This document shows, in pieces, positions 35,287 to 57,470 of a stretch of 64,000 bases of DNA. A model generated the notes under the pieces. That model had not been told where the DNA came from, ran no database searches, and saw only the letters and a list, made by a program, of their open reading frames with translations. How positions within the stretch are numbered: position 1 is the stretch's first letter; the number at the start of each line of letters is the position of its first letter. The position numbers were made by a program, and so were the translations under genes. Source of the stretch: Albimonas pacifica (GTDB taxonomy: Bacteria > Pseudomonadota > Alphaproteobacteria > Rhodobacterales > Rhodobacteraceae). The stretch lies in the NCBI RefSeq assembly GCF_900113695.1, contig NZ_FOQH01000001.1, positions 620,001 through 684,000 of the forward strand, written 5' to 3'.

Positions 35287-36417
35287 ATGCCCCCGCCGCC
35301 CCGCGACCCGGACGAGGCCCATCCGCCGCCCGAGGGGCCGGGCGGCGCCCGGCTGCGCACCGGCTTCACCACCGGCGCCTGCGCGACCGCCGCGGCCAAG
35401 GCCGCCTGGCGGGCGCTGCTGGGCGGGGGCTGGGAAGATCCGGTGACCATCGTCCTGCCCCGCGGCCAGACCCCCCGCTTCGCGCTGGAGACCCGCGCCC
35501 TCGCCCCCGACCACGCCCACGCGGCCGTGCGCAAGGACGCGGGCGACGATCCCGACGTCACCCACCTGGCCCTGATCGAGGCGCGGGTGCGCCGCGGCGC
35601 ACCCGGTTCGGGCGTGACCTTCCGCGCCGGGCACGGCGTCGGCACGGTCACCCGCCCCGGCCTGCCGATCCCCCCCGGCGAGCCCGCCATCAACCCGGTC
35701 CCCCGCAAGATGATCGAGGAGGCGATCGCCGAGGTCTCCGCCGAACTCGCCCAGGCCCCCGACGCCGAGGTCGAGATCTCGATCCCCGGCGGCGAGGCGC
35801 TGGCGGCGAAGACCTGGAACCCGCGGCTGGGGATCGTGGGCGGGCTCTCGGTGCTGGGCACCACCGGGATCGTGCGGCCCTATTCCTGCGCGGCCTGGAT
35901 CGCCTCGATCCACCGGGGCGTGGACGTCGCGAGGGCGGCGGGGCTCGCGCATGTGATGGGCGCGACCGGCGCCTCCTCCGAGGCCGCCGGGCGGGCGCGC
36001 TTCGGGCTGCCGGAGCACGCCTGCCTCGACATGGGGGATTTCGCGGGGGGGCTGCTCAAGTATCTCGCCCGCCATCCGGTGGCGCGGCTGACGCTGGCGG
36101 GGGGCGCGGCCAAGCTCGCCAAGCTGGGGCAGGGGGCGATGGACCTGCACTCCTCCCGCTCCCAGGTGGATTTCGCCGCGCTCGCGGCGCTGGCCGGCGC
36201 GGCGGGGGTGGCGGGGGCGGAGCGGATCGCCGCCGCCAACACCGTGCTTCAGGCGCTGCAGGAGGCCGGCCCGCAGGCGCCGGCGCTGGCGCAGGCCATC
36301 GGCCGCTCCGCCGCCGCCGCCGCGCGCCGGGCGCTGGGCGAGGCGCCGGTGGCGGTGGACGTGCTGGTCTGCGACCGCGCCGGCGGCGTGCTGGCCTTCG
36401 TGGAGGCGCAGGAATGA
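35287..36417 (+). CDS. cbiD: Cobalt-precorrin-5B C1-methyltransferase
   Basis: CbiD methylates C1 of the corrin precursor using S-adenosylmethionine. The protein has 376 residues. RTGFTTGACATAAAKAAWRAL near the start, GVGTVTRPGLPIPPGEPAINP and GGLSVLGTTGIVRPYS are clear family signatures. The first 20 residues are Pro-rich and variable. It is followed by a G-loop hairpin and then the precorrin-6A reductase gene. Confidence 0.94.
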   Translation: MPPPPRDPDEAHPPPEGPGGARLRTGFTTGACATAAAKAAWRALLGGGWEDPVTIVLPRGQTPRFALETRALAPDHAHAAVRKDAGDDPDVTHLALIEARVRRGAPGSGVTFRAGHGVGTVTRPGLPIPPGEPAINPVPRKMIEEAIAEVSAELAQAPDAEVEISIPGGEALAAKTWNPRLGIVGGLSVLGTTGIVRPYSCAAWIASIHRGVDVARAAGLAHVMGATGASSEAAGRARFGLPEHACLDMGDFAGGLLKYLARHPVARLTLAGGAAKLAKLGQGAMDLHSSRSQVDFAALAALAGAAGVAGAERIAAANTVLQALQEAGPQAPALAQAIGRSAAAAARRALGEAPVAVDVLVCDRAGGVLAFVEAQE

Positions 36418-36451: not shown

Positions 36452-36516
36452 GGCGTCCCGCCGTCCGGGCGCACGCCCCGCCCGCCCACCCGCGCGCGCC
36501 CGGACGGCGGGACGCC
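36452..36516. repeat. G-quadruplex-loop hairpin H1
   Basis: A perfect 21-bp stem (36452-36472 with 36496-36516) encloses a loop containing CCCCGCCCGCCCACCCG, the complement of CGGGTGGGCGGGCGGGG. It begins 35 bases after the cbiD stop. The loop matches H4 exactly, while the stem is unrelated to any other copy. No T tract follows. Confidence 0.85.
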
Positions 36517-36540: not shown

Positions 36541-37287
36541 GTGGCCGCTGAGCCGCCGCGGCTGCTGGTGCTGGCCGGCACCGCCGAGGCGCGCGCCGTG
36601 CTCGAAGCGCTGGCCCCCGCCGTCGCCGAGAGTCGGCTGCGGGTCCTCGCCTCGCTCGCCGGCGCCACCCGCGCGCCCCGGCCGCTGCCGGTCGAGACCC
36701 GCCGCGGCGGCTTCGGGGGCGCCGAGGGGCTGGCGGCCTTCCTGCGCGCCCGGCGCATCGACGCCGTGCTCGACGCCACCCATCCCTTCGCCGCCCGGAT
36801 CAGCGCCAACGCCGCCGCCGCCTGCGCCGCGGTCGGGGCGGCGCGCGCCCAGCTCCTGCGGCCGGGGTGGGACGGGCCGGCCCGCCGCTTCCCCGACCTC
36901 GCCTCGGCGCTCGCCGCCGCCCCCCCCGGCGCCCGGGTGCTGGCGGCGACCGGGCGCGCCTCCGCCCCGGCGCTGCAGGGGCGGGGCGACCTGGAGATCC
37001 TGCTCAGGGTGGCCGAGAGCGGCCCCCCGATCCCGGGCGTCGAGACCCTCGTCTCCCGCCCGCCCCACGCGCCCGAGGCCGACCGCGCGCTGATGCGCGG
37101 GCGCGCGATCAGCCACCTGCTCGCGCGCGACTCGGGCGGCGCCGACGGCGCCAAGCTCCACGTCGCCCGCGAGCTGGGAATCGAGATCCTGCTGGCCGAG
37201 CGTCCCCCGGCCGAGCCGGGCGCGGTCCTGCCGGGGGCGCCCGAGGCGCTGGACTGGGTGCTGGAAACGCTGGTCCTCGGCCGCTAG
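36541..37287 (+). CDS. cobK: Precorrin-6A reductase (CobK/CbiJ family)
   Basis: The enzyme reduces the macrocycle of precorrin-6A (or its cobalt form) with NADPH. The protein has 248 residues with a GTG start. LLVLAGTAEARAVLEALA is the nucleotide-binding start, and DAVLDATHPFAARISANAA and ISHLLARDSGG are family hallmarks. It stands 123 nt after cbiD with hairpin H1 between, so its expression may depend on read-through. Confidence 0.92.
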   Translation: MAAEPPRLLVLAGTAEARAVLEALAPAVAESRLRVLASLAGATRAPRPLPVETRRGGFGGAEGLAAFLRARRIDAVLDATHPFAARISANAAAACAAVGAARAQLLRPGWDGPARRFPDLASALAAAPPGARVLAATGRASAPALQGRGDLEILLRVAESGPPIPGVETLVSRPPHAPEADRALMRGRAISHLLARDSGGADGAKLHVARELGIEILLAERPPAEPGAVLPGAPEALDWVLETLVLGR

Positions 37288-45112: not shown

Positions 45113-45341
45113 GCTCCCGACTCACCCAAGAACAGGCCCCGCGCCTGTCCTCCGGATCCGTCTCTCGCTTGCGATGCCTGAGCGACTCGCCCCCTCCGGT
45201 CAAGGACAAGCCCCGCTCCGCGGGGTCGCTGCGCGATCCCTGACCGGAGGGGGCGAGTCGCTCCGGTCGGCATCCGCGAGAGACGGCTCCGGAGAACAGG
45301 CGCTTTGCGGCGGCCTCGGGCGTCGCGCCGGGGCGCGCGGG
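45113..45341. repeat. Inverted-repeat element between pckA and alkB
   Basis: Arms 45145-45203 and 45241-45300 are about 60 bases each and near-complementary, sharing CGACTCGCCCCCTCCGGTCA, CCGTCTCTCGC and CTCCGGA blocks. A 37-base middle carries its own hairpin CCCCGCTCCGCGGGG. The left flank (45113-45138) also matches 24 of 27 bases of 3041-3067. There is no gene inside. It lies in the 403-base gap between pckA and alkB and looks like a small non-autonomous element. Confidence 0.75.
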
Positions 45342-51621: not shown

Positions 51622-52686
51622 ATGAGCCCCCGATCCCTTCCCCCCCGTTCCGCCCCCTCGCGCCGCGCCGACCGCCGGGCCTCGTCCTCGGGCGTCGCGA
51701 CGCCCTCCGCCCTCTCGGTGATCGTGGTGGGCGCGCTGCTGGTCTCGGGCGTCGCGATGTCCCTGCCCGCCTTCGCCCAGCCGCAGGGCGGCAAGGCCGA
51801 GCTGCGCCGAGAGGCGCGCGAGGAGTGGCTCGAGGAAGCCGAGGCCGCGGGCGACCGCCTGCAGAAGGCGATCAAGGCCGCCGGCCGCGAGGCCGAGACG
51901 CTCGACGCCCGCATCTCGAAAGCGCAGGAGGCCGACGAGGCGCTGGGCGCGAAGCTGCAGCTTGCCCAGGCCGCCGGCTCCCAGCCCGCCCCCCGCCCGG
52001 CGCCCGAGCGCCCCGCGCGCGAGGGGCGCCCCGCCGCCGAGGCCCCCCAGTGCCGCGGCCGCCTGGTGGTCGAGGGCGAGGGGATCGAGACCGCGACCCC
52101 CGACGTGCTGCGCGTGAGCTTCGGCGCCGACGCCCGCGCCGAGGGGCCGGGCGAGGCGCTCGCCCAGGCGTCCGAGGCGGTGAAGGCGCTGCTCGACGCG
52201 GTGCTGGCGGCCGGCGTGGCGAAGGAGGACGTCTCGACCACGCAGGTGAACCTGAACCCGGTCTACGACCGCTCCGAGCGCAACGCGGCGCCGGAGATCG
52301 TGGCCTGGGAGGCGGGGTCGAGCCTGGCGGTGACGCTGAAGGACGTCTCGAAGTTCGGCGCGCTGGCGACGGCGGCGACCGAGGCGGGGGCGACCAGCAT
52401 CTCGGGCGTCAGCTTCGCGGTGTCGGACGAGAAGGACCGGCTGGAGGCCGCCCGCCAGGCCGCGGTGAAGGCCGCGCTGGCCCGGGCGGAGCTGCTGGCC
52501 GGGGCCGCGGACGCCCGCGTCGGCGCGATCCTGGAGCTGAGCGAGACCGGGATCTCGATGCCCGGCCCGCGGCCGATGTTCGCCCGCGCGGCGGTGGCCG
52601 AATCCGCCATGGCCGACATGCCCATCGCCGAGGGCGCGCAGGAGCTGCGCGCCACGGTGACCGCGACGGTCGAGCTCTGCCAGTGA
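51622..52686 (+). CDS. SIMPL (DUF541) domain protein
   Basis: The protein has 354 residues. An N-terminal signal or anchor (about 28-52, ending AFAQ) follows a basic tail, then a charged, partly coiled-coil region (about 58-115) and a Pro-rich linker. From about 145 the SIMPL domain reads RLVVEGEGIETATPDVLRVSFG, ETGAVAKEDVSTTQ-like and AILELSE. Related proteins are periplasmic or exported and poorly understood. GGAGGAG precedes the ATG. It stands alone after dnaJ. Confidence 0.88.
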   Translation: MSPRSLPPRSAPSRRADRRASSSGVATPSALSVIVVGALLVSGVAMSLPAFAQPQGGKAELRREAREEWLEEAEAAGDRLQKAIKAAGREAETLDARISKAQEADEALGAKLQLAQAAGSQPAPRPAPERPAREGRPAAEAPQCRGRLVVEGEGIETATPDVLRVSFGADARAEGPGEALAQASEAVKALLDAVLAAGVAKEDVSTTQVNLNPVYDRSERNAAPEIVAWEAGSSLAVTLKDVSKFGALATAATEAGATSISGVSFAVSDEKDRLEAARQAAVKAALARAELLAGAADARVGAILELSETGISMPGPRPMFARAAVAESAMADMPIAEGAQELRATVTATVELCQ

Positions 52687-52801: not shown

Positions 52802-52860
52802 GCCGCCGCCCCCGGCCACGAGCCCCGCCCACCCGCCCCGCCGTGGCCGGGGGCGGCGGC
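52802..52860. repeat. G-quadruplex-loop hairpin H2
   Basis: A perfect 19-bp stem (52802-52820 with 52842-52860) encloses AGCCCCGCCCACCCGCCCC-type sequence, whose complement has four G-runs with 1-nt spacers. It lies 3' of the SIMPL gene, C-rich on that gene's transcript. Confidence 0.8.
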
Positions 52861-52900
52861 TGCCGGGGCGCCCGGTCTCCCGGCGCCCGGCCCGCGCCAA

Positions 52901-52949
52901 GCGCGGCCCCTGCGCGCGGGTGAGCGGGCGGGGCGCGCAGGGGCCGCGC
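52901..52949. repeat. G-quadruplex-loop hairpin H3
   Basis: A perfect 17-bp stem (52901-52917 with 52933-52949) encloses GGGTGAGCGGGCGGG, one base off the loop of H1 and H4 but with one G-run broken (GAG). It is oriented opposite to H2, so for the minus-strand gene it is also C-rich in the transcript. Confidence 0.8.
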
Positions 52950-53118
52950 GGGCTTGCCCTCGGCGCAACGCCGGCCGGTCCGCGGGCGTCCCGAGACCTG
53001 ACTTCGGCGCGAGGATCGGACCCGGCGGCCCTTCGCGAGGCGCCCCGGGCTCGACCCGGGGCCTCCGTCCCGCCGCCGCCGCCGCGGTCGCATCGTCGTG
53101 GATCGGGACGGCCGGCGT

Positions 53119-54345
53119 TCAGCCCGGCGTGTCGGGATGCCGGCGCGGCGCCAGGATCCGCTCGGCGACGTTCGCGGCGCCCTCGGCCAGGCCCTCGCCG
53201 TCGAAGTTTCCGCGCACCAGCGAAGTCCAGGCCAACGCCCGGAGGAAGGTCTCGACCCGCCCGGGTTCCGGCGGCCGGGGGGCGGACCAGAATGTCGCCA
53301 GCGGCTGCGGGTCGACCAGCCCCTCGCGGTCGAAGATCGCCCGGCCCAGCGTCTTCACCGGAACCCCCCGGCGCAGGGCCGAGAGGCCGACGGTCGAGTT
53401 CACCGTCGCCAGCCCCGCCGCCCGCCCGAGCATCGCGCCCAGGTCGCCGCCGTCGATCACCTCGACCCGGTCCTCCGCGCCATGGCGGGCCGCCGTCGCG
53501 CGCAGCAGGCGCCGCCAGGGGGTCAGGCCGTTGTCGACCGGGTGCTCCTTGACCAGCAGGCGCGCCTCGGGCGGGGCGTGCAGGGCGAAGCTGCGCACCA
53601 CCGCCTTCGCCGTCTCGCGCAGGTCGGGGTCGGGGCCGTGGGCGCGGATCTGGAAGTCGGTGCGCAGCTGCAGCGGGAACAGGAACAGCGGCGCCTCGCC
53701 CTGCCGCCACGCCTCCCACACCCGCGCCGCATGGGCCCGGTCGCGCCGGGCGCGGAGCATCTTCCACAGGAAGCCGCCGTATTCGGCCAGCGGGTGCCAG
53801 GTCTGGTGGCGCCGATAGCCCGGATGCGTGGCCCAGGAGAGCGCCAGGTTCGCCAGGTTCCAGGCGACGTCCATCGCCGCATAGGACGCGAAGGAGGAGC
53901 GGTAGAGGCGCGTCTCCTGCGGGACCTCGCCGCGCGCGGCCAGCGCCTCCAGCGCCGGCCAGTCGGCGGGGAAGGGCGCGCCGGCGCCGCCGCCGTCGGG
54001 CTCCACCGTCAGCCAGTCCGGGCGCACGTAGCCCAGCTCGACATGGTGCACCCGCACCCCCATCGCCTTCGCCCGGTCCACGGCGGGGCGATGCAGGGGG
54101 CGGTTGTCGCCCAACAGCACCAGGTCGGTGACGCCCTCGGCCGCCATGAACGCCTCGACGAATGCGGGCCAGTCCGCGAAGGGGCCGCGATAGGACCGCC
54201 CCCCGCCGCGCCGCCAGAACAGCGCGTCGCCGGGGGAGAGATGCAGGCGCAGCACCCGGGCGCCGCGCGCCTCGAGCGCGTCGCCCAGATGGGAGAAGAA
54301 CGTCGACGACGGCCCCTGCAGGAGCAGCGCGCAGCGCTCGGCCAT
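53119..54345 (-). CDS. Capsule polysaccharide protein, KpsS-like (1)
   Basis: The protein has 408 residues of the capsule synthesis/export family. It opens CALLLQGPSSTFFSHLGDALE. The conserved acceptor/donor region has LLVKEHPVDNG and later ATVNSTVGLSALRRGVPV, as in KpsS-type glycosyltransferases that build the lipid-linked linker. GGAGG precedes the ATG. It is divergent from a paralogue 220 bases away. No KpsC partner is in the window. Confidence 0.85.
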   Translation of the reverse strand: MAERCALLLQGPSSTFFSHLGDALEARGARVLRLHLSPGDALFWRRGGGRSYRGPFADWPAFVEAFMAAEGVTDLVLLGDNRPLHRPAVDRAKAMGVRVHHVELGYVRPDWLTVEPDGGGAGAPFPADWPALEALAARGEVPQETRLYRSSFASYAAMDVAWNLANLALSWATHPGYRRHQTWHPLAEYGGFLWKMLRARRDRAHAARVWEAWRQGEAPLFLFPLQLRTDFQIRAHGPDPDLRETAKAVVRSFALHAPPEARLLVKEHPVDNGLTPWRRLLRATAARHGAEDRVEVIDGGDLGAMLGRAAGLATVNSTVGLSALRRGVPVKTLGRAIFDREGLVDPQPLATFWSAPRPPEPGRVETFLRALAWTSLVRGNFDGEGLAEGAANVAERILAPRRHPDTPG

Positions 54346-54475
54346 CGCTCTTGTCCTCCGTCCTCGCGTCCCCGGCTTCCGGCCCCGTCCTGCCCGCCCG
54401 GGCGGGCGGGCGCAAGCCATGCCTGCTGCAGGCCCGGGCAGGTCGGGCCGGGGCCCATGCAGGGGCGGGGCGGCA

Positions 54476-54504
54476 TTGACTTGGCCCCCGCCCCGGCCTA
54501 GCCC
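54476..54504 (+). promoter_or_regulatory. Candidate promoter of second KpsS-like gene
   Basis: TTGACT (54476-54481) and TAGCCC (54499-54504) are 17 bp apart, about 60 bases before the ATG at 54565. The -35 is good and the -10 weak, in a GC-rich surrounding. Confidence 0.45.
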
Positions 54505-54564
54505 CTCCCGGCGGCGCCGGCCGGACCCGGCGCGCGCGCGTGACGGGCGGATGGGAGCGCCAGC

Positions 54565-55902
54565 ATGGCCGCAGTCGAAGCGGGCGGAGCGGACGGCCGC
54601 AGCACCCGGGCGCGCCGCGTCCTGTTCCTGCAGGGCCCGCCGACGGTGTTCTGGCGCGAGCTCGCCGGCGCCTTCGAGGCGCAGGGCCACGAGACGCGCC
54701 GCGTGAACCTCTCCACCGCCGACTGGCTGACCTGGCGCAGGCCGGGCGCGGACAGCTATCGCGGGACCTTCTCGGGCTGGCGGCGCTGGCTGGGGCGGTA
54801 TCTGGACGCGCAGGGCGTCACCGACGTCCTCTACTACGCCGACCGCCTCCCCTATCACGTCGTCGCCGCCGAGGAGGCCGAGCGCCGCGGCATCCCCTGC
54901 CACGCGGTCGAGTTCGGCTACCTGCGCCCCGACTGGCTGACGCTGGAGCGGCGGGGGATGGGCGCCTTCTCCCACTTCCCCAACGACCCGCAGACGATCC
55001 GCCGCCTCGCCGCCGCGATCGAGGAGAAGCCGGAGCTCGGCACGCGCTACGCCCACTCCTTCATCCGCGAGGCGACGGACGAGCTGCTGTTCAACCTCGT
55101 CAACGCGCTGTTCTGCTGGCCCTGGCCGTTCTTCGACATGGACAAGCGCTATCACCCGCTGACCGACTACCCCAGCTGGATCCCCCGCCTGATGCGCGGC
55201 GACCGGCTGAAGCGGGAGGCGGAGGCGGTGGTGGCGACCTGCGTCTCGGGCGCCTGGCCCTACCACCTCTTCGCGCTGCAGATCGAGGCGGACTACCAGC
55301 TGCGCGACAACTCCCCCTACGACACGCTCGCCCAGCCGATCGCGGAGGTCATCGCCTCCTTCGCGCGCCACGCCCCGCCGGAGCAGCGGCTGGTGTTCAA
55401 GCTGCACCCGCTGGACAACGGGCTGGAGAACTGGCCGGGCCTGGTGCGCCGCCGGGCCGAGGCCGAGGGCGTGGCCGACCGGGTGATCGCCATCGACGGG
55501 GGCGACCTCGACGCGCTGCTTCGCCATGCGGACGGGGCGCTGTCGGTGAACTCGACCGTGGGGCTGCATGCGATCCGGGCGGGGACGCCGACGCTGGCGC
55601 TGGGGCCGGCGGTCTACGACGTGGCGGGGCTGACCCACCAGGGCCCGCTGGCCAGCTTCTGGACGGCGCCCGAGCCGGTGGACGCGGGGCTCGCCGCCGA
55701 CCTGATGAAGGTGCTGGCGGACACGATCCAGGTGAAGGGCTCGTTCTACAACAAGGCGGGTCGGGCGCTGGCGGCGCAGGAGATCGTGCGCCGCGTCGCG
55801 GCCGGCGAGGTCAACGAGCCCGGCGCCTTCGTGCCCACACCCCCCCGCCTGCCGGTGCGCCGCCGCGACGCCGACGTGGCCTTCGCCGCCGCGCAGGGCT
55901 GA
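54565..55902 (+). CDS. Capsule polysaccharide protein, KpsS-like (2)
   Basis: The protein has 445 residues and is a paralogue of the divergent gene: RVLFLQGPPTVFWRELAGAFE at the start, LVFKLHPLDNGLENWPGL and LSVNSTVGLHAIRAGTPTLALG in the C-terminal half. It belongs to the same sugar-transferase fold and probably acts in the cytoplasm on the capsule lipid linker. The two copies differ clearly, so they may add different residues, for example successive Kdo units. Confidence 0.85.
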   Translation: MAAVEAGGADGRSTRARRVLFLQGPPTVFWRELAGAFEAQGHETRRVNLSTADWLTWRRPGADSYRGTFSGWRRWLGRYLDAQGVTDVLYYADRLPYHVVAAEEAERRGIPCHAVEFGYLRPDWLTLERRGMGAFSHFPNDPQTIRRLAAAIEEKPELGTRYAHSFIREATDELLFNLVNALFCWPWPFFDMDKRYHPLTDYPSWIPRLMRGDRLKREAEAVVATCVSGAWPYHLFALQIEADYQLRDNSPYDTLAQPIAEVIASFARHAPPEQRLVFKLHPLDNGLENWPGLVRRRAEAEGVADRVIAIDGGDLDALLRHADGALSVNSTVGLHAIRAGTPTLALGPAVYDVAGLTHQGPLASFWTAPEPVDAGLAADLMKVLADTIQVKGSFYNKAGRALAAQEIVRRVAAGEVNEPGAFVPTPPRLPVRRRDADVAFAAAQG

Positions 55903-55965
55903 TCCCGCCTGCCGTCCGGCGCCCCGCCGCTGGCGGCAGACGCCCCGCTTCCTTTTCCGCGCATC

Positions 55966-56046
55966 GCCCGCCGCCACGCCCGCGGCCCCGGCACGCGCCC
56001 CGCCCGCCCACCCGCGCGCGCCGGGGCCGCGGGCGCGGCGGCGGGC
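55966..56046. repeat. G-quadruplex-loop hairpin H4
   Basis: A 32-bp stem (55966-55997 with 56015-56046, two A-C mismatches) encloses exactly 17 bases, CCCCGCCCGCCCACCCG. It lies 63 bases after the second KpsS-like stop. This is the longest stem of the family. Confidence 0.87.
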
Positions 56047-56087
56047 AGGGCGGTTCGCGCCGGCTTGCGCAGGAGGGCGCCGCGCAA

Positions 56088-56146
56088 GCCGCCGCCCCCG
56101 CCCGCAGGCGGGTGGGTGGGCGGGGCCTGCGGGCGGGGGCGGCGGC
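56088..56146. repeat. G-quadruplex-loop hairpin H5
   Basis: A perfect 21-bp stem (56088-56108 with 56126-56146) encloses CGGGTGGGTGGGCGGGG, the complement of the H4 loop with one change. H4 and H5 therefore face each other with complementary loops inside a 326-base convergent gap that has no gene. Confidence 0.87.
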
Positions 56147-56228: not shown

Positions 56229-57470
56229 TCAGTTGAGCTGGTTCAGCAGCCGCAGGGTCTGCGTGGTGGGCGAGAGCGCGTCGTCGACCACGCTCAGCAC
56301 CTTGCCCGCCTGCGCGAGATCGGCGTTGGCGGTGTAGACGATGTCCCCGTCCTCCATCGCGAAGCGCCGCGCGAGGAAGAACGAGCCCGGGTCCGACAGG
56401 TCCAGCCCGTAGACGATGGGCGTGGCCGAGGCCCCGGCTTCCGGCGCCGCCGAAGGCCCGGCCAGGGCCACGGCCACCTCCGGGTCCTCGTAGCGGAACA
56501 CGAAGACCGAGCTCGGGTCGGCCCGGCGGTCGTCGAGGCCCCCGGCCTCGGCGATGGCCTGGTCGAGCGTCACCACCTCGGTCGAGAAGGCGATGCGCCG
56601 CGCGCGCCCGTTGGCGCCCAGCGAGGTGAAGCTCTGCCCGATGTCGAGCGCCGCGATCACGTCGCCCGAGCGCACGCGCACGTTCTGCGCCGGCTCGCGC
56701 AGGATCCGCGCCAGATGCGCCTCGGCCTGCACGTCGCCGCGGGTCAGGCGGATCAGCGTGCGGTGGGCGGGGGTCTTCGAGCCGCCCGAGGCCGCCAGAA
56801 CGTCCAGCACCCGCTCGCCCACGCCGTTGAGCTGCACGCGGCCGGCGTTGCCGATCGCATCCCCCAGCACCGTCACCGAGGAGACCGGCGACTGCTGGAT
56901 GGTGACGATCACCTGCGGCTCGATCGCCTTGCCCGCCAGCGCCGAGACGATGGCCGAGGCGACCTGGTCGGGCGTGCGCCCGTTGGCAGAGATCCGCCCC
57001 GCGTAGGGCACCGTGATCCGCCCGTCCGGGCCGATGCGCTGGTCGGGCAGGGCGGCGCCCCGGCTCTCGGAGTTCTGGGTCGAGAACAGGCCGCCCTCGA
57101 CCGCCTCCCAGATGGTGATGCCGACGACGTCGCCCACGCGCAGCACCTGCGCGTCGGCCGCGCCGCGCCCGGCGAGATCGGCGGGGGGCTCGGCGCGGCT
57201 GCGCTCCAGCACCTCGACCGCCTCGGGGGTCAGGATCGCGTAGGCGTAGGGGAACACCGTGGTCTCGGGCGAGGCCGCCGCCTGGCGCACCGCGTCGCCC
57301 GTGGGGCCCGAGGCCGGCGCATAGGCGCAGCCCGCAAGGGCCGCGGCCAGCAGTCCGACGGCCAGGGCGCGCGCCCGCGCCCCGTTCCCGCCGCGCAGCC
57401 CGTGCCCGCCGCGCAGCCCAAGCCGCGCCGCCGACGCGCCGACGGCGCGTCCCGCTTCCGATCCGCGCAT
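56229..57470 (-). CDS. Outer-membrane polysaccharide export lipoprotein (Wza/KpsD family)
   Basis: The protein has 413 residues. The signal ends in the lipobox LAGC (about residue 48) after a Gly/Arg-rich start. The Poly_export domain begins ADAQVLRVGDVVGITIWE, continues RIGPDGRITVPYAGRISANGRT, and is followed by SLBB-type repeats (VTVLGDAIGNAGRVQL, RLTRGDVQAEAHLARIL). It forms the outer-membrane channel for capsule or exopolysaccharide. It faces away from the KpsMTE-like genes, with a small VPLPA gene between. Confidence 0.92.
   Translation of the reverse strand: MRGSEAGRAVGASAARLGLRGGHGLRGGNGARARALAVGLLAAALAGCAYAPASGPTGDAVRQAAASPETTVFPYAYAILTPEAVEVLERSRAEPPADLAGRGAADAQVLRVGDVVGITIWEAVEGGLFSTQNSESRGAALPDQRIGPDGRITVPYAGRISANGRTPDQVASAIVSALAGKAIEPQVIVTIQQSPVSSVTVLGDAIGNAGRVQLNGVGERVLDVLAASGGSKTPAHRTLIRLTRGDVQAEAHLARILREPAQNVRVRSGDVIAALDIGQSFTSLGANGRARRIAFSTEVVTLDQAIAEAGGLDDRRADPSSVFVFRYEDPEVAVALAGPSAAPEAGASATPIVYGLDLSDPGSFFLARRFAMEDGDIVYTANADLAQAGKVLSVVDDALSPTTQTLRLLNQLN

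Follow-up and report, generated by a model that had tools for sequence, protein, structure and literature searches.

What kind of element holds its loop nearly constant while the stem beneath it is free to change? The question is raised by five hairpins in a 64,000-nucleotide stretch of the Albimonas pacifica genome, which we call the window (73% G+C). A preliminary description had placed these hairpins from the letters of the window, and remeasurement of the arms finds all five at their reported positions. They are given here with the neighboring genes; the strand named for a hairpin is that of its G-rich loop.

35287 to 36417, plus strand: cbiD, upstream of hairpin 1 (NCBIfam TIGR00312, above cut-off)
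36452 to 36516, minus strand: hairpin 1, arms of 25 nt, 96% complementary; loop core at 36477-36491 with four G-runs on the minus strand; cbiD stop upstream at 36417, called start of the next gene downstream at 36541
36541 to 37287, plus strand: the gene that follows hairpin 1, resembling cobalt-precorrin-6A reductase (top NCBIfam match scoring under that family's curated cut-off)
51718 to 52686, plus strand: SIMPL-domain (DUF541) gene, upstream of hairpin 2 (PF04402)
52802 to 52860, minus strand: hairpin 2, perfect stem of 19 bp, loop GGGCGGGTGGGCGGG on the minus strand; 3' of the SIMPL-domain gene (plus strand, stop at 52686)
52901 to 52949, plus strand: hairpin 3, perfect stem of 17 bp, loop on the plus strand with one G-run broken (GAG); the 3' end of a minus-strand Capsule_synth gene faces it
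53119 to 54345, minus strand: Capsule_synth gene (PF05159), 3' end facing hairpin 3
54565 to 55902, plus strand: Capsule_synth gene (PF05159), upstream of hairpin 4
55966 to 56046, minus strand: hairpin 4, arms of 33 nt, 94% complementary, loop GGGTGGGCGGGCGGG on the minus strand; 3' of the plus-strand Capsule_synth gene (stop at 55902)
56088 to 56146, plus strand: hairpin 5, perfect stem of 22 bp, loop GGGTGGGTGGGCGGG on the plus strand; the 3' end of a minus-strand Poly_export gene faces it
56229 to 57470, minus strand: Poly_export/SLBB gene (PF02563), 3' end facing hairpin 5

The loop is as constant as had been proposed. Exact copies of its 17-mer lie on the minus strand at 36476-36492 and 55998-56014; copies that differ by one base lie on the plus strand at 52917-52933 and 56109-56125, and one that differs by three lies at 52823-52839 (minus strand). 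Four of the five loops carry the four G-runs of a quadruplex motif, hairpin 3 being the broken case, just as first reported; a fold model that allows quadruplexes, run with RNA parameters, places one in four of the loops and none in hairpin 3. The claim that the stems are unrelated stands except for the hairpins at 52802 and 56088, whose outer 13 nt are identical. With up to three mismatches, the 17-mer has 19 matches in the window, against a mean of 6.4 and a maximum of 16 in 100 dinucleotide shuffles.

The preliminary description had asked whether the 17-mer also occurs without flanking arms. All four exact copies in the whole genome lie within hairpins. A 1.264-Mb sample (the window together with 1.2 Mb from adjoining parts of three contigs) holds 20 copies of the four-run motif GGGNGGGNGGGNGGG, and 18 of these are hairpin loops with a stem score of at least 12; 17 reach a score of at least 19, and the two without a stem score 8 and 3. 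A score of 12 is attained by 37 of 6,000 random intergenic positions and by 2 of 642 intergenic 15-mers rich in G/C runs. The genome contains at least 56 such hairpins, their loops mostly 15-19 nt long with the fixed four-run pattern, and six facing pairs lie 94-253 bp apart. Since motif searches need intact G-runs, loss of runs is under-counted, and the strict conservation of runs comes partly from the choice of cases.

The stems are kept as structures rather than as letters. All 20 modelled stem pairs covary, with both sides varying, and the covariation score is 0.851 compared with 0.193 after shuffling; the alignment was chosen for stems, and its percentage paired is partly so by construction. 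Orthologous gaps keep the loop and its position while the stem alters. Between Albimonas (G000) and the related genome G001, 18 common gaps contain the element; 18 double changes exchange one Watson-Crick pair for another, and 15 of 54 linker positions differ. In two gaps common to four or five genera the stems are unrelated and the loop type is the same. The arms are thus maintained across orthologous gaps and, together with the covariation, this supports the selection on structure that a free stem and a constant loop had suggested. Among the window copies, the hairpin 1 gap in G001 has a hairpin whose arms are 81% identical and whose loop core is unchanged, and in the hairpin 4 gap both Albimonas sp. 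CAU 1670 and G001 have a hairpin that shares the loop core. The element is not kept in every orthologous gap: CAU 1670 has neither hairpin 2 (its orthologous gap there is about 65 bp) nor hairpin 3, and a motif scan of the hairpin 5 gap gave one hairpin only, the partner of hairpin 4.

In the samples searched, the element is restricted to the family. A model of it matches at least 30 of 198 Rhodobacteraceae genomes, counting the source genome, which is also the sole match in a sample of 240 from the class; both counts are lower bounds because 21-26 candidates were scored per genome. Carriers include relatives with loci of 60-65% G+C, where the stems mix purines and pyrimidines. An Rfam search of the window returned no match above the gathering score, a search of 20 loci in the carrier genome G104 returned two tRNAs only (both in locus L281), and a literature search, mostly at the level of abstracts, found no element of this kind; membership of an Rfam family is therefore rejected, and the earlier impression of an undescribed class holds. 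In G104 a unit of about 180 nt also occurs four times in near-identical form; rRNA or tRNA terminators were rejected as its source, since the search gave only those two tRNAs, both in a different locus.

Which strand matters had been left open. In 178 hairpins, stem mismatches read on the strand with the G-runs (the G strand) involve G in 167 cases and C in 11: G.T 89, G.G 48, and G.A 30. On the mRNA (C) strand the same mismatches become A.C 89 and C.C 48, with G.U only 2, so that the G.U-tolerant pairing of an intrinsic terminator is not seen. With DNA parameters, the G strand gives the more stable stem in 109 of 118 imperfect cases and the C strand in 8. Ordinary 3' hairpins lack such a bias (in G000, G.T 25 versus A.C 22 and G.G 28 versus C.C 42; in G020, G.T 10 versus A.C 9; in G104, too few), these controls having shorter loops of 3-14 nt and a stem score of 8. 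Pairing is thus kept on the G strand only, which points to the G strand as the one that matters. Linkers read on that strand are TCC in 72 of the 178 hairpins, TTC in 37, CCT in 15, CTT in 12, and TTT in 10; this variety, in which orders also occur mirrored, fits a constraint on the quadruplex rather than on one fixed string.

In G104 the element lies just after stop codons. Gene calls come from a purpose-written hexamer script, trained on G020 or G104 for most other genera. The G strand serves as template for the upstream gene at 27 of 29 distinct sampled sites; of these 27 stems, 22 begin between -1 and 29 nt from the stop codon (median 9), the place of a GC-rich terminator hairpin. No U-tract directly follows: at positions 1 to 5 beyond the stem, T occurs in 10, 8, 4, 8, and 4 of 27 cases, a weak excess at positions 1-2 only, and 21 of 59 other 3' hairpins in G104 have a U-tract. 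In tandem gaps, the G strand is template rather than sense in 13 versus 2 cases in G104, 22 versus 12 in Albimonas (n=34), 11 versus 6 in G001, and 7 versus 2 in G086; the orientation is weak in G020 (7 versus 8). Albimonas has further exceptions in 3 divergent gaps and 5 hairpins inside called genes.

In some genomes the element is also polar along contigs. Adjacent copies within a contig share a strand in 42/42 pairs in G104, 15/15 in G130, 8/8 in the small G086 sample, 28/35 in G020, and 20/27 in G001; polarity is partial in Albimonas (27/41) and absent in G039 (34/71 in the listed part), so a replication component is not general. The GC skew of the G strand is negative in 28 of 30 G104 loci, and the low-skew strand of both G104 and G020 is the G strand, probably the leading-strand template.

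Free stems and four GGG runs on one loop strand suggest that the folded G-rich DNA strand itself has a job. We propose, at a probability of roughly 0.4, that the element works as DNA: its template strand would fold as a quadruplex-capped hairpin and slow or stop RNA polymerase at gene ends. Transcription or replication would open the inverted repeat, and the four-run strand would then form a stem topped by a parallel G-quadruplex whose linkers are single bases. Lying just 3' of the stop codon with its G strand as transcription template, the fold would impede polymerase leaving the upstream gene; such a barrier may limit read-through into the next gene or give a transcript end without a U-tract. 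Stem letters would be free because only stability matters and linker letters because only quadruplex folding matters, and the limits on orientation would reflect instability when the G-rich strand is the non-template one or the template of the lagging strand. Slightly more tentative is the wider view of a lineage-specific class of gene-end signals acting as folded DNA, not RNA, free in sequence, with its strand set by transcription and, in some genomes, replication, and ending or attenuating transcription at selected genes. On stability, one study (PMC7023247) found (G3T)8 in E. coli to be 354 times more mutable when its G-rich strand was the non-template one, and the leading/lagging difference for G3T repeats was small, which counts against the replication argument.

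The betB-betA and amidohydrolase-agmatinase gaps, shared and with the G strand antisense to both neighbors, also count against a barrier. They look intercistronic, a place where complete termination would split an operon, and they rule out an element whose only role is to end whole transcripts. The betB-betA element is missing from seven named Rhodobacterales plasmid copies, three of which leave no room between the genes (10 nt, an overlap, or another annotated gene) and four of which have a gap without such an element, and from one S. meliloti bet gap.

Could the element act as RNA instead? The mRNA would form a long hairpin with a C-rich loop, serving as a 3' stabilizer or a terminator without a U-tract, its CCCRCCCRCCCRCCC loop being a possible binding site for Rho or some other protein that recognizes C. 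The G104 site, just after the stop codon and in the sense of the upstream gene, suits this, as do the strong C-strand RNA hairpins predicted for the five window copies (-41.6 to -81.1 kcal/mol), and a C-rich, G-poor RNA would also keep C and lose G. We nevertheless consider it unlikely, since the mRNA-strand mismatches are the reverse of those that are cheap in RNA, mirrored linker orders speak against a linear protein site, and RNA action alone gives no cause for polarity along contigs. Placing the function in an RNA of the G strand, which would end or stabilize antisense or opposing transcripts, accommodates the tolerated G.U and G.G mismatches and the read-through that convergent gaps would expose; it is quite improbable, as both neighbors lie on the other strand at 13 G104 tandem sites against 2 on the G strand, and in the betB-betA and amidohydrolase-agmatinase gaps, too, the G strand is antisense to both neighbors.

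Another explanation is a mutational by-product: a quadruplex on the leading-strand template would stall polymerase and a template switch would copy one flank inverted, re-forming perfect stems. This would account for the constant loop with arbitrary near-perfect stems, for stem turnover in orthologous gaps, and for polarity where present; it leaves unexplained the short stop-codon distance in G104 and the absence from the class sample, and template switching predicts mismatches without the strand bias observed, making it improbable. A REP/BIME-like repeat spread by a Y1 transposase would fit multicopy, mostly intergenic palindromes, the facing pairs in Albimonas, presence or absence between close species, and the repeated G104 unit. 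It is very improbable: stems differ between copies, and a Y1_Tnp match appears in none of seven carrier genomes, although the same search matches 5 of 14 controls; a RAYT-type REP is rejected on this ground. High G+C raises the background for a chance product, which we regard as practically negligible and reject, given the 18/20 against 2/642 contrast, the covariation, and the relatives of lower G+C.

How does the proposed folded-DNA element compare with known systems? It shares with intrinsic (Rho-independent) terminators a GC-rich hairpin 3' of the stop codons of diverse genes, and differs in lacking a clear U-tract, in its longer loop with four fixed runs, and in keeping to one strand per contig in G104. 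Actinobacterial "I-shaped" terminators, which have no U-tract, place a long GC-rich stem near the stop codon and are not known to have a fixed loop; they resemble the element in stem, position, and lack of a T-run and differ in the loop, and neither selection on one strand nor polarity with replication is known to us in them. REP elements have conserved stems and are linked to a Y1 (RAYT) transposase; the element is likewise a multicopy extragenic palindrome found 3' of genes and between cistrons, some copies facing each other in pairs, but its stems are free, both sides varying in every modelled pair. KOPS/AIMS are short replication-polar motifs that carry their G residues on the leading strand and are not known to form hairpins. 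The element resembles them in its strand polarity within contigs of some genomes, which may follow replichores, yet is a hairpin with G on the low-skew strand. In the E. coli G-quadruplex-hairpin-duplex switch attributed to Kaplan et al. 2016, quadruplex and hairpin reportedly compete for the same letters; both are repeated bacterial quadruplex motifs able to form hairpins, and in the present element a stem of its own carries the quadruplex as its loop. Intrastrand triplex motifs (PMC4666352) are abundant G/C-rich folded DNA repeated in bacterial genomes; the element is similarly abundant, G/C-rich, and predicted to fold, and differs in the mixed stems of its lower-G+C members. The nasT quadruplex of P. 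denitrificans was rejected as the same element: its sequence differs, and PMC5123632 contains neither "hairpin" nor "inverted repeat."

In our judgement, it is an open question whether G-quadruplexes in bacterial chromosomes have selected functions at all. In this element the quadruplex loop is retained over changing stems, in tens of copies in a genome, and the mismatch bias names the folded strand, so that a direct genetic test is possible in a culturable bacterium. If the proposed reading is true, these bacteria have a gene-end signal that is read as DNA structure. The strand polarity seen in some genomes also lends itself to testing, in nature, how the direction of replication constrains folded DNA.

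The five hairpins of the preliminary description are all present in the window as described. At a stem score of at least 13, the window holds eight hairpins; five have the shared loop type, one of those with a broken run. We call the strand with four G-runs in the loop the G strand and its complement the C strand.

36452-36516: hairpin 1, between cbiD and a cobalt-precorrin-6A reductase-like gene
52802-52860 and 52901-52949: hairpins 2 and 3, a facing pair in a convergent gap
55966-56046 and 56088-56146: hairpins 4 and 5, a facing pair in a second convergent gap
45180-45263: a second repeat family, with 20 further copies in sampled stretches L036-L090

At all five hairpins, the G strand is the template of the gene owning the nearest 3' end, so that this gene's transcript would carry a C-rich loop. 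The quadruplex-type loop proposed for all but hairpin 3 agrees with folding of the window G strands with quadruplexes allowed (ViennaRNA, RNA parameters): a cap is predicted in four of five, the exception being the broken-run loop of hairpin 3. Albimonas (genome 6.02 Mb) holds six facing motif pairs, spaced 94-253 bp and found also between tandem genes: window 52802-52949 and 55966-56146, and contig positions C35:309194, C41:77251, C41:79354, and C41:339980. In every pair, the left G loop is on the minus strand and the right on the plus.

The association of loop and arms far exceeds chance. The search for four G-triplets joined by single bases covered the window and 1.2 Mb of adjoining stretches from three contigs (1.264 Mb, both strands) and gave 20 sites, 18 of them with flanking arms at a stem score of at least 12; this score is reached at 2 of 642 motif-free intergenic G/C-run-rich sites and at 37 of 6000 random intergenic positions. 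With targeted stretches added, 56 of 72 distinct motifs lie in hairpins (mean stem 26 bp). The constant 17-mer loop was not found free of flanking arms: its four exact genome copies all sit in hairpins. Base composition is ruled out as the cause, because the loci of some members are only 60-65% G+C.

The structure is conserved; the sequence is not. A gapless 65-column alignment of 51 hairpins has 94.2% paired cells, against 55.0% when shuffled, a percentage raised by the selection of hairpins with 13 or more paired positions. All 20 pairs show changes on both sides, and the covariation score is 0.851 versus 0.193 shuffled. Orthologous gaps provide a cleaner test. For 18 of 25 hairpins compared from G001, another Rhodobacteraceae genome, a partner was found in Albimonas (both flanking genes matched in 16, one in 2). 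Across these pairs, arm identity is 62-100%, and linkers differ at 15 of 54 positions; in the arms, 65 changes are one-sided, 18 double changes swap one Watson-Crick pair for another, and 12 double changes are of other kinds. Five genomes of different genera carry a hairpin after betB (downstream betA recognised in four), and four of different genera carry one in the amidohydrolase/agmatinase gap, with unrelated stems in both cases; BetB, amidohydrolase, and agmatinase were named by NCBIfam, and BetA by matching annotated plasmid genes. The expectation that arms are maintained in orthologous gaps holds for these sets but fails in part in Albimonas sp. CAU 1670, source of the closest named relative found for a window protein (90% identity; next A. 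donghaensis, 69%): its orthologous gaps lack hairpins 2 and 3, and the gap matching hairpins 4 and 5 shows a single hairpin only. Among seven named Rhodobacterales plasmid copies of the bet genes, none has the element between betB and betA, and three leave no room for it there.

With a covariance model at a threshold of 1e-4, matches occur in at least 30 of 198 family genomes, Albimonas included; among 240 genomes sampled from the class, the window's own is the sole match found, and the other 239 include two or more of the same family. Few candidates were scored in each genome, which makes both figures lower bounds. Intact-pattern matches, in hairpins or not, number 128 in G039, 47 in G104, 39 in G020, 36 in G001, and 26 in G130, with 2-14 in each remaining genome searched.

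Stem imperfections distinguish the 2 strands. The set comprised 178 hairpins from 33 sources, with one copy from CAU 1670 repeating one from G001; read on the G strand, its 179 stem mismatches are G.T 89, G.G 48, G.A 30, C.T 5, C.C 4, A.C 2, and T.T 1. The G strand is the more stable in 109 of 118 imperfect stems, and the C strand in 8. Ordinary 3' hairpins have G.T and A.C about equally (25 versus 22 in Albimonas; 10 versus 9 in G020), with only 7 mismatches in the G104 control. The usual C-to-T excess on leading and non-template strands would push opposite to the G-strand bias. G-strand linkers are mainly pyrimidine and are seen in both orders, as expected if quadruplex folding, rather than a linear site, is kept. 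The loop is also found with its letters mirrored, as GGGGTGGGCGGGCGGGA and AGGGCGGGCGGGTGGGG (L078, L136, and others), and some orthologous pairs, L014/L240 among them, have linkers that mirror each other.

Position was best sampled in G104 (30 loci fetched from 47 motifs, two overlapping, hence 29 sites). There, 27 of 29 sites lie downstream of a gene whose sense strand carries the C-rich loop, and two do not. At the 27, the median distance from stop codon to stem start is 9 nt, with 22 within -1 to 29 nt; the remaining five are at 78-145 nt, and four of these are copies of a single repeat unit. Judged by their translations, the upstream genes are of many kinds. Within 400 kb of a G104 contig, genes on the positive-skew strand have this type as all six of their strongest 3' hairpins; four were seen after other-strand genes, all in convergent gaps, G-rich in sense and 74-89 nt away, three being the same hairpins. 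In tandem gaps, G as template versus sense is 22 versus 12 in Albimonas, 11 versus 6 in G001, 7 versus 2 in G086, 7 versus 8 in G020, and 12 versus 4 at loci sampled singly from other genera, a set that includes one locus each of G104 and G086. In Albimonas convergent gaps, the nearer gene has G as template in 12 of 14.

Neighbouring motifs share a strand in 42 of 42 pairs in G104 and 15 of 15 in G130 (0 of 20000 shuffles as high), 8 of 8 in G086 (898), 28 of 35 in G020 (33), and 20 of 27 in G001 (209). Polarity is partial in Albimonas (27/41), where skew is weak, and absent among the motifs listed for G039 (34/71; 13116 of 20000). The G strand has negative GC skew at 28 of 30 G104 loci and in 9 of 11 G020 stretches.

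What is kept, then, is a stable G-strand fold, a loop able to form a quadruplex, a preferred strand, and, where sampling was best, closeness to the stop codon. Judged from sequence, these features are most likely explained jointly by a hairpin with a quadruplex cap that would fold in the template strand and slow or end transcription. A serious rival is that the element acts in RNA, as an mRNA 3' element: such an element would be expected at this location relative to stop codons, and C would likewise be kept at mismatches by an RNA rich in C and poor in G. Orientation can be weighed against E. coli repeats. PMC7023247 reports 354-fold higher mutability of (G3T)8 with the G-rich strand as non-template, a small leading/lagging difference for G3T repeats, and, from work cited within it, stronger lagging-template effects for hairpins. 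On this basis, orientation of the element by transcription is supported directly, and its orientation by replication only indirectly.

Other repeats were also noted. The second family reads gagcgactcg, 8 variable nt, ggtcaagga ... tccttgacc, 8 mostly complementary nt, cgagtcgctc; it encloses a smaller variable hairpin and again combines fixed segments with a paired segment that is free to vary. G104 has four near-identical units of about 180 nt without an Rfam match, each terminated by a G-quadruplex-loop hairpin (L265, L272, L277, and L293, about 1340-1560). A REP-like palindrome with ccccggacttgatccggggcctc-type arms recurs (L038 13079, L054 7741, L068 7461, L087 18174). About 41 consecutive G on one strand at C54:32695-32735 of Albimonas may be an error of sequencing or assembly.

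Unlike intrinsic terminators, the element fails the U-tract and RNA-pairing tests; unlike REP elements, it fails those of stem conservation and transposase. The window has no match to Rfam families, and the literature covered, mostly non-subscription papers, yielded no account of the element, in keeping with the preliminary description, which had not recognised it as a described class. We rate the quadruplex-loop hairpin as a categorically new class of element with a putative function.
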